From: a virus
Reading direction: 5' to 3' (one strand)
Virus record (IMG/VR): IMGVR_UViG_3300025896_002001
Span: 1-21,811 of that record
DNA length: 21,811 nucleotides
The translations under genes and the position numbers were made by a program. The notes beneath the pieces were generated by a model. The model made no database searches and had not been told where the DNA came from. It saw only the letters and a list, made by a program, of their open reading frames with translations. Shown here in pieces: positions 1,734-5,592 of this stretch; position 1 is the stretch's first letter; each line of letters starts with the position of its first letter.

Positions 1734-2931
1734 AAGTCGCGCGATTCGTGACCCTAATTGGGCTTCGTGGGGTCGTGGCGACCAGTTCTATGGGCCTGGG
1801 TCCGCGGCGGGTGTTGCTGTCACGGAAGATTCGGCGCTTCAACTGTTGAGCGTGTTCGGTTGTATCCGAGTCATTTCGGATTCGATCGCGATGCTGCCGG
1901 TTGATACGTTTCGGCGTCGTCAGGGGTTGCAGGAGCAGCTGCCGAATCCGGTTTGGTTGGATCAACCGAACGTCGACACGGACCGCATTTCGTTCATGGC
2001 GCAGAGTCTTGTGTCGTTGTTGCTGCGGGGTAATGCGTACTGGCTGGTGATTCGGAATCCTTTGGGTTCTCCGGTCGAGTTGTGGAACTTGCATCCCGAT
2101 TGGGTGTCGGTTCGTCGTGTTCGTCGAGCCCAATCGACCCGTGAATATCATTTGTTGGGTCAGCCGTTCGATGGTGAGATCGTGCAGATCCCGGCGGTGA
2201 TGTTGCCTGGTGCGATTCGTGGTGTCGATCCGATTACTGCGGCTCGAGATGCGATCGGGATGGGTATTGCCGCTCAGACGTTCGGCAGCAAGTTCTTTGC
2301 TCAGGGTGCGACACCGTCTGGGGTGATTCAAGCTCCGGGGATGGTGACGCCCGATCAGGCACGCGAGCTCGCGTCGGGTTGGCGTGCCGCTCATGGTGGA
2401 GTGAACAAGTCGAACTTGCCGGCGATTCTGACTGGCGGGATGACGTATACGCCGGTGAGTGTGACGCCGGAACAAGCCCAGTTCTTGGAGACTCGCCGTT
2501 ACACCGACGAGCAGATTCGTGAATTGTTCGGGTTGACTCACCCGTTCGAGCGTGGTGGTGGCGGCGTCAAGATGACGTATGCGAACACCGAGATGCTCGG
2601 CCAGGACTTCACCCGCTTCACGTTGATGCCTTGGACCGCTCGGCTCGAATCGGCGTTGGCTCGTCTGTTGCCTCGCCCGCAGTATGCGAAGTTCAATCTG
2701 GATGCGTTCTTGCGAGCCGATTTGTCGACTCGTTATGACGCCTATTCGGTGGGGATCGCTGCCGGTTTCTTGACGGTCAATGAGGCGCGCGACAAGGAGA
2801 ATCTGGAGCCGCTGCCCGATATGGCGGTCGCACCGGATCCGTCGTTGCCGGATGCGCCTGCTCCGTTGCAGTCGGCGCCGACACCGCCGTCGATGCCGTT
2901 GACGCCTGGCGCTGTCCGTCAGATCGACTGA
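1714..2931 (+). CDS. Portal protein, HK97 type
   Basis: The portal is the dodecameric ring at one capsid vertex through which DNA enters and leaves. It docks terminase and later the head-tail connector. Family hallmarks include SVFGCIRVISDSIAMLPVDTF near the N-terminus, followed by GNAYW and the WNLHPDWVSV segment. The last 40 residues are rich in Pro, Ala and Asp, as is common for portal tails. I chose the ATG at 1714 (405 residues, starting MLARLFESRAI) over an ATG at 1663 because the extra residues are low in complexity and a purine-rich AGAAAGAAG lies just upstream. It overlaps the small membrane gene by 20 bases, and its TGA shares a base with the next ATG. Confidence 0.93.
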   Translation: MLARLFESRAIRDPNWASWGRGDQFYGPGSAAGVAVTEDSALQLLSVFGCIRVISDSIAMLPVDTFRRRQGLQEQLPNPVWLDQPNVDTDRISFMAQSLVSLLLRGNAYWLVIRNPLGSPVELWNLHPDWVSVRRVRRAQSTREYHLLGQPFDGEIVQIPAVMLPGAIRGVDPITAARDAIGMGIAAQTFGSKFFAQGATPSGVIQAPGMVTPDQARELASGWRAAHGGVNKSNLPAILTGGMTYTPVSVTPEQAQFLETRRYTDEQIRELFGLTHPFERGGGGVKMTYANTEMLGQDFTRFTLMPWTARLESALARLLPRPQYAKFNLDAFLRADLSTRYDAYSVGIAAGFLTVNEARDKENLEPLPDMAVAPDPSLPDAPAPLQSAPTPPSMPLTPGAVRQID

Positions 2932-4187
2932 TGGCCGATACGTTCACGCCGCCTCAGGGTGTGCGAGAAGAAGCTGCTCGAGCGGTCCGTTGGATCGCTG
3001 ATGGTCAAGCCGGTTCTGGTTTCACCAATGTTGGTCGTGCTCGGGCGCATCAGCTCGCCGATGGCGACCCGGTCAGCCTCAACATCATTCGTCGCATGGC
3101 GTCCTTTCTGGCTCGCCATCGAGTCGACAAGGAAGGCGAAGGTTGGCGTCCCGGCGAGGCCGGCTATCCGAGTCCGGGCCGAGTGGCCTGGGCCGCCTGG
3201 GGTGGCGACCCTGCTGTTTCGTGGACCAATTCGATTTTGGAAACTGTCAACAGCCGCGCCCAAACACCGAGGAGTGTCATGCTCGCCAATGAGCGTCGGT
3301 TCTATGCCACCGAGTTCGAAGCTCGAGATGTCGGTAATGAGTTCCGCATTTCGGGTCATGCTGCGGTGTTCAACAAGTCAAGCCAAGACCTCGGTGGCTT
3401 CGTGGAGCGAGTCGCACCCGGAGCGTTCGCGAAGACAATCTCGCAGGCCGATGTACGAGCCTTGTTCAATCATGATCCGAACATGATCCTTGGGCGTTCC
3501 CGTGCTGGTGTTGGCACGCTCCGCCTGGGCGAAGATTCCCAAGGCTTGTCGTATGACGTCAGCCTGGATCGCCGCCAGTCGTATGCGAACGATGTTGCGA
3601 TCGCCATCGAGCGAGGCGACATCACCCAAAGTTCGTTCGGTTTCCGAACGATTGCCGACAGTTGGGACCGCACCGATGACGGTTACCCCCTACGGACCCT
3701 GACCGAAGTGAGCTTGAACAACGGTGACGTGTCACCGGTCACTTATCCGGCTTATCTCGATGCTGATGTGGCAGCCCGTGCCCTCCACCATGTTTCCGCC
3801 AAGATCGGCGTCACCGCCGACGACCTCCTCGTCGCTTTGCGCGACGGACGACTCCCCGGAGAAATCAACCCGATGGACACTATTCCCGATGTTCGTGCGA
3901 TGGGTTACACCGCCGACACTCCCGCCGAGATCGCCAACGCTCTCGATGTGCTGATCGACCAGTATGAGGCGGCGATGGTTCCCGGTGTCGACCCGTCAGT
4001 TTGCGCTGGCCTGTTCACCGCGATCGACAACCTCGTCGACGACCTTTGCATGTTGCTCGGTGTGTCCGACCCAGACGAGATGGCCGAAGCTGTGTCCGAG
4101 GCGGCGGCCTCCAATACTGCTGGCATGGCAAACGAGATGAACTCGTTGCGGCTTGCCCTCCTCGCCAAGCGTCACAGCCCAGTCTGA
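2931..4187 (+). CDS. Prohead protease with extra N-terminal domain
   Basis: This is the serine protease that trims capsid protein and scaffold during prohead maturation (HK97 prohead protease, peptidase family S78). The catalytic core is about residues 118-290. H181 lies in FNHDP, S235 in QSSFGF, and the LTEVSL...PAY segment follows. Residues 1-115 form a separate domain rich in conserved-looking positions (GRARAHQLADG, IRRMASF, PSPGRVAWAAWGGD). I recognise it from other actinophage head proteins but cannot give it a function. The last 120 residues are acidic and helical, possibly a scaffold-like tail. An internal ATG at 3279 with its own ribosome binding site could yield the protease without the N-terminal domain. 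The start overlaps the portal stop (TGATG). Confidence 0.88.
   Translation: MADTFTPPQGVREEAARAVRWIADGQAGSGFTNVGRARAHQLADGDPVSLNIIRRMASFLARHRVDKEGEGWRPGEAGYPSPGRVAWAAWGGDPAVSWTNSILETVNSRAQTPRSVMLANERRFYATEFEARDVGNEFRISGHAAVFNKSSQDLGGFVERVAPGAFAKTISQADVRALFNHDPNMILGRSRAGVGTLRLGEDSQGLSYDVSLDRRQSYANDVAIAIERGDITQSSFGFRTIADSWDRTDDGYPLRTLTEVSLNNGDVSPVTYPAYLDADVAARALHHVSAKIGVTADDLLVALRDGRLPGEINPMDTIPDVRAMGYTADTPAEIANALDVLIDQYEAAMVPGVDPSVCAGLFTAIDNLVDDLCMLLGVSDPDEMAEAVSEAAASNTAGMANEMNSLRLALLAKRHSPV
3269..3281 (+). promoter_or_regulatory. Internal ribosome binding site in the protease gene
   Basis: GAGGAG is followed after four bases by an in-frame ATG (M117 of the fusion), exactly where the S78 protease core begins (MLANERRFYATEF). 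A product from here would have 302 residues, close to stand-alone prohead proteases. The full-length start at 2931 has no comparable site and relies on overlap with the portal stop. Confidence 0.5.
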
Positions 4188-4204
4188 GACGCTTTCGAAT
4201 CGTT

Positions 4205-4270
4205 GCGGAACGGACCGCCAGAAGCATCCGTCCGCAGCTTGCCAATCCGCCGACCGCCAGAAGCATCGGC
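4205..4270 (+). promoter_or_regulatory. Two leader hairpins with the same 12-base loop
   Basis: A direct repeat GACCGCCAGAAGCATC occurs at 4213-4228 and 4252-4267. Each copy is the loop and upper stem of a hairpin, both with loop CCGCCAGAAGCA. Hairpin 1 pairs GCGG-ACGGA (one bulged A, 4205-4214) with TCCGTCCGC (4227-4235). Hairpin 2 pairs GCCGA (4249-4253) with TCGGC (4266-4270). The stems differ in sequence but both close, as expected when structure and loop are under selection. They lie 50 to 115 bases before the major capsid start, in a stretch with no convincing gene. The role is unknown; a protein- or RNA-binding site controlling capsid expression is one possibility. Confidence 0.55.
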
Positions 4271-4285
4271 ATTCAACCCAACCGC

Positions 4286-4315
4286 CCTGTGCCCGGGGCC
4301 TAACTCCACAAGGAG
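4286..4315 (+). promoter_or_regulatory. Capsid leader element and ribosome binding site
   Basis: CCTGTGCCC lies 24 bases (start to start) before AAGGAG, which is five bases from the capsid ATG. The same pair, 25 bases apart, precedes the tail tube gene at 12502-12532, with GCCTA also shared in between. The two most abundant virion proteins therefore share a leader element. Whether it acts in transcription or translation cannot be told. Confidence 0.5.
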
Positions 4316-4320
4316 ACTCA

Positions 4321-5592
4321 ATGTCCACCAAGGACTACCTGGGCAACCTTCGGGATGCCCGCAACCGGGCGTGGGGCGAGGCGCAGGAGCTCCTCGACCG
4401 CGCTACCAGCGAAAACCGCACTTTCACCTCCGAGGAGGAGGCGAAGTGGACGGCGATCAACGCCGACATCGACACCAAGGATGAAAGCATCCGGTCGATT
4501 CTCGACATCGAGCACCGTGAGCGTGAAGCCGCTGTGGCCCGAGAGGCGTACGCGCCGATCCTGGGCGACGCCGGCCTCGAGTCCACGGACCGTCGTTCGG
4601 TCGACGAGGTTGCCAAGTTCCTCCGGGGCGAGACTCGCTCCCTCGAGCTTGACTTCCGCGGTATCGCTCGTGAGAAGCGTGCGATCCGTTCGGGCGCCGA
4701 CGCTCGCGAGCTCCGTGATCTCGGCGAGGACACCACCACCGCCGGTGGTTACGCGGTGCCCACGTCGTTCCTGCGGTCGCTGTACGACTACCTGGAGTTC
4801 TACACGGGTGCCCGCCAGCTCGGCGTGCAGATCGTGACGACCGCTTCGGGTGAGCCGATCCAGATTCCGTCGGTGTCCGCTCACGGCACGGCTGCTCTTC
4901 GCGGTGAGGGTACGGCGCTCGGCGAGGCCGACGCGGCGTTCACCCAGGTCACGATGAACGCCTGGAAGTACGGCACGCTCGTCCAGGTCAGCAGCGAACT
5001 TCTCGCTGACACCGGTATCGACGTTCTCGGTTTTATCGCCGAGGACACGGCCCGTGCGATCGCCCGTGCGACCGACACGGCCTACGTCACCGGTTCTGGG
5101 AGTGCTCAGCCGAAGGGCATCATCTCGACTCAGGCTATTGGTGCGACTGTGCAGACCGGCTCGACCGGTGTGCCGTCGTATGCCAACCTGGTTGACTTCG
5201 TTTACTCGGTCAACCCGATTGCCCGTCAGGCTGGCGCTCAATGGTTCACCCTGGACCGCAACGTCGCGGCGATGCGGAAGATCGTCGACAACTACGGTCG
5301 GCCCCTGTGGGAGCCGAACGTGCAGGTCGGCGAGCCGGACCGTTTCCTCGGCTACCCGATCGTCCAGGACCCGAACGTCGCGGCGTTCGCAACTGCCGGC
5401 GGTACGCACGCTGCGTTTGGCGACTTCCGGTCCTACATGATCCGTGATGTCGGCACGCTTCGCTTCGAGGCGTCGCCCGACTTTGCTTTCAGCTCCGACC
5501 TGATGACCTACCGGGCCATCATGCGGACCGACGGCAAGTGGATCAACGGGTCCAACGGAGAAGTCAAGCTTCTCAAGGCCCCGACTTCCTGA
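4321..5592 (+). CDS. Major capsid protein, HK97 fold
   Basis: This is the main shell protein. The 423-residue product starts with a charged, helical region of about 100 residues (the delta or scaffold domain typical of HK97-like capsid proteins, normally removed by the prohead protease), then the shell domain from about AGGYAVPTSFLRSLYDYLE. Further typical segments are WKYGTLVQVSSELLAD, a run resembling TGSGSAQPKGI, and GYPIVQDP near the end. I chose the ATG at 4321 because AAGGAG sits five bases upstream; the in-frame ATG at 4153 would run back into the protease gene. Codon use is strongly biased: all of about 30 leucines use CTN and none uses TTG, unlike the terminase and portal genes. The stop codon lies within a UUCG hairpin. 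Confidence 0.95.
   Translation: MSTKDYLGNLRDARNRAWGEAQELLDRATSENRTFTSEEEAKWTAINADIDTKDESIRSILDIEHREREAAVAREAYAPILGDAGLESTDRRSVDEVAKFLRGETRSLELDFRGIAREKRAIRSGADARELRDLGEDTTTAGGYAVPTSFLRSLYDYLEFYTGARQLGVQIVTTASGEPIQIPSVSAHGTAALRGEGTALGEADAAFTQVTMNAWKYGTLVQVSSELLADTGIDVLGFIAEDTARAIARATDTAYVTGSGSAQPKGIISTQAIGATVQTGSTGVPSYANLVDFVYSVNPIARQAGAQWFTLDRNVAAMRKIVDNYGRPLWEPNVQVGEPDRFLGYPIVQDPNVAAFATAGGTHAAFGDFRSYMIRDVGTLRFEASPDFAFSSDLMTYRAIMRTDGKWINGSNGEVKLLKAPTS

Follow-up and report, generated by a model that had tools for sequence, protein, structure and literature searches.

Twin hairpins conserved upstream of HK97-fold capsid genes in phages, a candidate mRNA operator of capsid production

The analyzed stretch of 21,811 nucleotides (hereafter the window) derives from an uncultivated virus, of which it is a 21.8-kb fragment. 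It encodes a terminase, a portal, an S78 prohead protease and an HK97-type major capsid protein (MCP), besides a glycosyltransferase, an epimerase and tail proteins. Two adjacent hairpins, referred to here as the twin, are placed in the gap that separates the protease stop (4187) from the capsid start (4321). The features of this region are as follows.

2931..4187, + strand: S78 prohead protease gene, 5' of the element (Pfam PF04586, E-value 1.4e-42; PHROG_80)
4205..4235, + strand: hairpin 1, GCGG.A.ACGGA-[CC]-GC-CAGAA-GC-[A]-TCCGT-CCGC, in the minimum-energy fold
4249..4270, + strand: hairpin 2, GCCGA-[CC]-GC-CAGAA-GC-[A]-TCGGC, in the minimum-energy fold
4284..4299, + strand: third hairpin, tentatively part of the leader, GCCCTG-TGCC-CGGGGC, seen in the fold
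4304..4315, + strand: possible hairpin covering the Shine-Dalgarno sequence (tentative), CTCC-ACAA-GGAG, in the minimum-energy fold
4321..5592, + strand: HK97-fold major capsid gene, 3' of the leader (Pfam PF05065, E-value 7.3e-54; PHROG_10)

The N-terminal domain of the protease gene (about 110 residues; 2931-3260) corresponds to PHROG_2859, a family without assigned function, and recurs in many IMG/VR contigs.

Both hairpins are present in the minimum-energy fold, also when longer sequence context is included. The outer stem of hairpin 1 consists of GCGG, a bulged A and ACGGA, paired with TCCGT and CCGC. An exact 16-nt repeat, GACCGCCAGAAGCATC, at 4213-4228 and 4252-4267 forms the core common to both hairpins, and the flanks of each copy pair in the fold, as the preliminary description of twin hairpins with one repeated core and different arms had proposed. 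The same description treated the repeated part as a 12-nt loop; the repeat stands, but it is not a single open loop, as it comprises a CC/A internal loop, a GC/GC mini-stem and the pentaloop CAGAA. Pentaloop and mini-stem change among relatives and CCG...CA stays. The conserved core is thus the asymmetric CC/A internal loop with the G-C pair closing a short inner stem, not the 12-nt loop.

The fold energy of the window leader by itself is ordinary (z -1.48); the evidence for the element comes from comparison. The third hairpin has a counterpart in the related locus L124, where the TGCC loop is retained and the stem is AGAACCTG/CGGGTTCT, with two two-sided changes between the two lineages compared. 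Other hairpins occupy this place in L128, L130 and L248. The Shine-Dalgarno region of the window has a mean unpaired probability of 0.49 and tentatively lies in a weak hairpin; the covering stem is identical in L124 with a different loop, and no covariation was observed.

MCP relatives of the window were collected from IMG/VR and genome contigs. Both hairpins were found in the protease-capsid gap of all distinct MCP relatives of at least 63 % identity having the leader, and their stems differ yet pair. Pairing of hairpin 1 is retained in L122-L124, L126, L128, L130, L248 and L251. In L124 the two hairpins are CGAG-CC-GCC-TCACC-GGC-A-CTCG and GCCGG-CC-GC-CCAGAA-GC-A-CCGGC; the latter, the counterpart of hairpin 2, has the outer stem GCCGG/CCGGC, in which an A-U pair has become G-C on both sides with the internal loop unchanged. 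L126 carries the stems GAACG/CGTTC and GCTTGG/CCGAGC around CC-GC-CGAAA-GC-A, and further examples are L128 and L248 (CCGTCGG-CC-GGTT-CGC-AACC-A-CCGACGG, with a wholly different inner stem). The window-clade form was also present in L260, a metagenome-assembled genome labelled actinobacterium.

When 14 distinct hairpins of this clade were scored, the outer pairs and the closing G-C were formed in 98.8 % of cells and covariation was 0.780, compared with 0.221 for shuffled data (0/500); it fell to 0.13-0.17 once the partner was slid by one column. Wobble-type cells comprised seven G-U and no A-C, the pattern expected for coding-strand RNA. The 5'-side unpaired CC, the 3'-side unpaired A and the G-C pair closing the inner stem (CCG...CA) are constant in the clade; the inner stem, apical loop and outer stem are variable. 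The element sits outside the protease frame here. The compensatory change suspected from the window alone was recovered in related as well as distant phages (see below), and a structured element linked to the capsid gene is strongly supported. An extra hairpin with a changing stem and a CGTGC(C) core was observed before the twin in L128 (4700-4735), L130 (6350-6385) and L248 (2835-2870).

When the window-clade motif was scanned on distant MCP relatives, twins were observed in L256 and L259, whose MCPs are about 31 % identical to that of the window. Relatives of these two were fetched by MCP alone (L394-L397), and three of the four retain both hairpins; in L397 the first hairpin is intact and the second shortened. 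This second-clade form is GAG-CC-GG-N6-CC-A-CTC, with stems such as tgag/ctca, gcgag/ctcgc, ccgag/ctcgg and cgcgag/ctcgcg. Beside the upstream twin, L392-L395 and L397 have a strongly conserved hairpin-like sequence, GCGTGCCCT(AG)AAAGGACGC, which contains the Shine-Dalgarno and lies directly 5' of the capsid start.

IMG/VR DNA was also scanned without any protein information for the pattern AGCCGG-N6-CCACT occurring twice with 13-43 nt between the copies. A total of 97 contigs matched, and a long same-strand ORF began at most 300 nt downstream in 85 of them; among the 74 non-identical downstream ORFs, 69 were PHROG_10 major head proteins. The stem bases flanking the pattern, which were not selected, were paired at the first position in 153/153 and at the second in 142/153 distinct hairpins, with several pair types. 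For 100 distinct hairpins, taken from a single contig for each capsid lineage below 70 % identity, covariation was 0.311 against 0.068 when shuffled (0/500), and 0.02-0.08 when slid. The CC, the A and the G-C pair are fixed by the definition of the pattern; their constancy had been established beforehand in the window clade. Internal cells of the second clade comprised four G-U and ten A-C. The wobble test was not used as proof of an RNA strand because it gave 7:0 in one clade and 4:10 in the other.

A generic scan (CCG...CA twins with outer stems of at least 4 pairs) was applied to all loci not picked by the twin pattern. It recovered 17 distinct twins, of which 15, including that of the window, lie directly before a same-strand capsid ORF, in a locus set that was enriched for capsid genes by the way it was fetched. 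The orientation was sense in every case with a capsid ORF following. We propose to define the element as two hairpins at most 60 nt apart, each of the form outer stem-CCG...CA-outer stem, in sense orientation before a capsid gene, and the window twin has all these properties. The window hairpins are missed by a covariance model built on the AGCCGG form (a profile of AGCCGG-N6-CCACT against hairpin 2 gave 5.8 bits and an E-value of 9.5), the model being over-specific as its columns were fixed by the search. The two forms are tied by architecture, copy number, strand and place and not by a profile match that would support common descent. The structure, its conservation, the copy number of two and the fixed pre-capsid place were established by these comparisons.

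We also tried short strings as markers. The loop 14-mer ACCGCCAGAAGCAT and the string GGCCGCCGAAAGCACC were rejected as their matches were mostly chance sites within unrelated genes, and matches of GGCCGCGCNNNACGCACC were mostly noise. The loop itself is therefore not a marker.

Among the named carriers are a plasmid of Nonomuraea gerenzanensis that contains a phage head operon (L505), Olleya phage Harreka_1 (L496) and Flavobacterium phage snusmum9-1 (L498; its second outer stem has 3 pairs only). Together with L260, they indicate that the hosts span at least Actinomycetota and Bacteroidota. The generic twin was absent from the 700-900 nt scanned upstream in HK97, TG1, Euratis, phiBT1, phiPsal1, phi19:1, Shoya, Evi, QHHSV-1, Klebsiella phage 1, KS9, Eyre, RHph_Y3_1, Yong-L1-251 and Javan181 and on the plasmids of Corynebacterium atypicum, Streptomyces NBC_01335 and Planctopirus. 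The AGCCGG twin pattern was found in 0 of 396 actinobacterial genomes (a reversed control pattern gave three matches). Neither DNA similarity among annotated phages nor an initial scan of genomes for the window capsid yielded a match. In Pontimonas phage phiPsal1 (L262), two near-identical small motifs, AGCGTTAGCG and AGCGTAAGCG, occur shortly before the capsid start at 1875, and the capsid gene is followed by a glycosyltransferase gene as in the window; the motif pair is perhaps another element of the same kind.

On the capsid tree, presence of the element is clustered yet patchy, with six changes, of which the starred (well-supported) branches force at least four; the deep part of this tree is unsure because of long branches, and absence was judged by the CCG...CA twin motif only. 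The element was thus gained or lost several times, and a partner strictly tied to the capsid lineage is not required. The distance from the twin to the capsid start varies from about 38 to 290 nt.

No relevant match to the window leader was found among the 4227 families of Rfam 15, even at E-values up to 5, and eight carrier loci gave no match at the gathering score. No description of the twin was found in the open-access full-text literature; an earlier description is possible, as subscription papers are mostly outside that corpus. In two surveys of bacterial structured RNAs (PMC2864571, PMC8040213) the word 'capsid' does not occur and no capsid-associated motif is named. We conclude that a structured element before phage capsid genes is real, widespread and apparently undescribed.

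As to its function, we infer action as RNA, protein binding, capsid expression as the output, a direction of regulation and a partner. Judging from the sequence comparisons, we consider it about an even call that the twin is a cis-acting bipartite protein-binding operator in the late mRNA that sets capsid expression. Each hairpin would display one recognition unit, the asymmetric CC/A internal loop closed by the G-C pair, on an exchangeable stem, and two copies 5-43 nt apart would let a dimeric or oligomeric partner bind with avidity. Most likely this partner would be a protein of the phage head module (capsid or protease) or, failing that, a conserved RNA-binding protein of the host, and binding of the partner would adjust the amount of capsid relative to the protease encoded directly upstream. 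Simple occlusion of the ribosome site is unlikely given the variable distance to the capsid start. The patchy distribution on the capsid tree fits less well with an operator whose partner is strictly capsid-bound.

Several other explanations were weighed. That a short repeat closes by chance is exceedingly improbable, even though the fold energy of the leader alone would allow it. A twin of the window architecture did not arise in 5,000 dinucleotide shuffles of the window leader, twins of this form arose at most 4 times per 10,000 shuffles for any leader, and the generic twin was absent from 120 loci fetched by an unrelated 14-mer (1.9 Mb of viral DNA, both strands counted). Since relatives retain the twin and neither shuffles nor background DNA yield one, chance closing was rejected; the reservation that the second stem, at 5 bp, might have closed in this way was not borne out, about 5 bp being the usual length of the outer stem. 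A repeat at the protein level is very unlikely as well. The twin lies within a long frame running into the 3' end of the protease gene in 90 of the 97 pattern carriers, and 88 carriers share one reading phase, in which E/Q/K-P-x-x-T/S-T (EPxxTT) is encoded twice, so the protease tail might need this peptide twice and the DNA repeat might merely be its code. However, the motif codon (GAG, CAG or AAG) pairs with the first base of the codon after the motif in 102/102 cases, and these first bases covary (GAG with C.., CAG with G.., AAG with T..). The wobble base of the fourfold codon preceding the motif and the second base of the codon that follows the motif are complementary in 63/67 cases (permutation control: mean 32, maximum 45 in 10,000), and pairing of synonymous bases with the next codon indicates that the nucleotide structure is selected. 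The Olleya and Flavobacterium phages, moreover, retain the structure with other peptides. Together with the location of the window-clade element outside the protease frame, these results rejected the peptide repeat as the sole cause. The protease C-termini of L398-L494 have EPxxTT twice in most carriers, and a protein motif constraint may exist besides the nucleic-acid structure.

The main rival, which we regard as possible but on the doubtful side, is mRNA processing or stability, with a nuclease cutting at or near the hairpins or the hairpins protecting a new 5' end. Somewhat doubtfully, too, a short-lived portal/protease message would thereby be split from a long-lived capsid message, which would set the protein ratio. 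Such processing tolerates a variable distance to the start codon, and the element sits precisely at the junction across which expression has to jump; in those 90 carriers whose element falls within the 3' end of the protease frame, cleavage would inactivate the protease message and release the capsid message. On the other hand, a plain protective hairpin would not require its internal CC/A loop to be constant, about 5 bp of stem is short for RNase III, and the duplication is left unexplained. An RNA acting on transcription or sensing a ligand, by put-like antitermination on the polymerase or as a tandem-hairpin small-molecule sensor, is unlikely: both known kinds take the form of tandem small hairpins with constant internal letters, but no terminator-like site adjoins the element in the window (3900-4500), no Rfam match was found and the apical loops vary, and for a ligand sensor the tie to one structural gene across phyla is hard to explain. 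Slightly less credit still is due to a DNA-level site, in which extruded or single-stranded DNA hairpins would be bound by a recombinase or another DNA-binding protein. The stems are mostly strict Watson-Crick and G-U is not favoured over A-C in the second clade, both of which speak for such a site; against it, G-U prevails in the window clade, the element is always on the coding strand directly before one gene, and a recombination site there has no known reason.

Returning to the operator, we consider the chances roughly balanced that the twin represents a widespread, undescribed class of mRNA operators, in part lying within protease coding sequence and shared by HK97-fold phages from two or more bacterial phyla (Actinomycetota and Bacteroidota), through which a head protein or a conserved host factor would set capsid production. 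How tailed phages obtain hundreds of capsid subunits for every few copies of protease and portal, all encoded in one operon, is for the most part unexplained. Across phyla, a small element that is conserved in structure and not in sequence sits exactly at the protease-capsid junction, and it makes this question of the capsid ratio directly testable. In addition, the twin can mark capsid genes in raw sequence and is a candidate part for expression control that is missing from RNA family databases.

In the single-stranded RNA phages MS2 and PP7, the coat operator is a small hairpin whose stem is interrupted by unpaired sequence a few base pairs beneath its apical loop, and protein binding to it tunes translation. 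The twin hairpins are likewise short, interrupted below the apical loop and near a viral shell gene. Unlike MS2 and PP7, the carriers are double-stranded DNA phages with HK97-fold capsids, and neither an RNA-phage genome nor its coat fold is found in the window, which has a PF05065 Phage_capsid shell in a tailed-phage operon with terminase and portal. There are two copies, protein binding is putative, the constant letters are CC/A and a G-C pair instead of a bulged A and an ANYA-type loop, and the twin lies upstream of the shell gene and not on the replicase start. The guanidine-II (mini-ykkC) riboswitch and other tandem motifs are built from two small hairpins that have their constant letters in common while the stems can be exchanged, a form that the twin shares. 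It differs in the absence of ACGR apical loops (its loops are CAGAA, CGAAA, CGACA, CGCAA, TCACC, NNGAGN and others) and of an Rfam match, and in its tie to a capsid gene. The put RNA of phage HK022 and the boxB RNA of lambda are phage hairpins that either bring in a protein or act on the polymerase. In contrast to these, the twin is located at the protease-capsid junction in the middle of a structural operon, no terminator context was seen and its apical loop is unconserved. It resembles the structured RNAs that comparative surveys (PMC2864571, PMC8040213) located in the neighbourhood of phage or prophage genes; these are likewise covariation-supported candidates in phage DNA.
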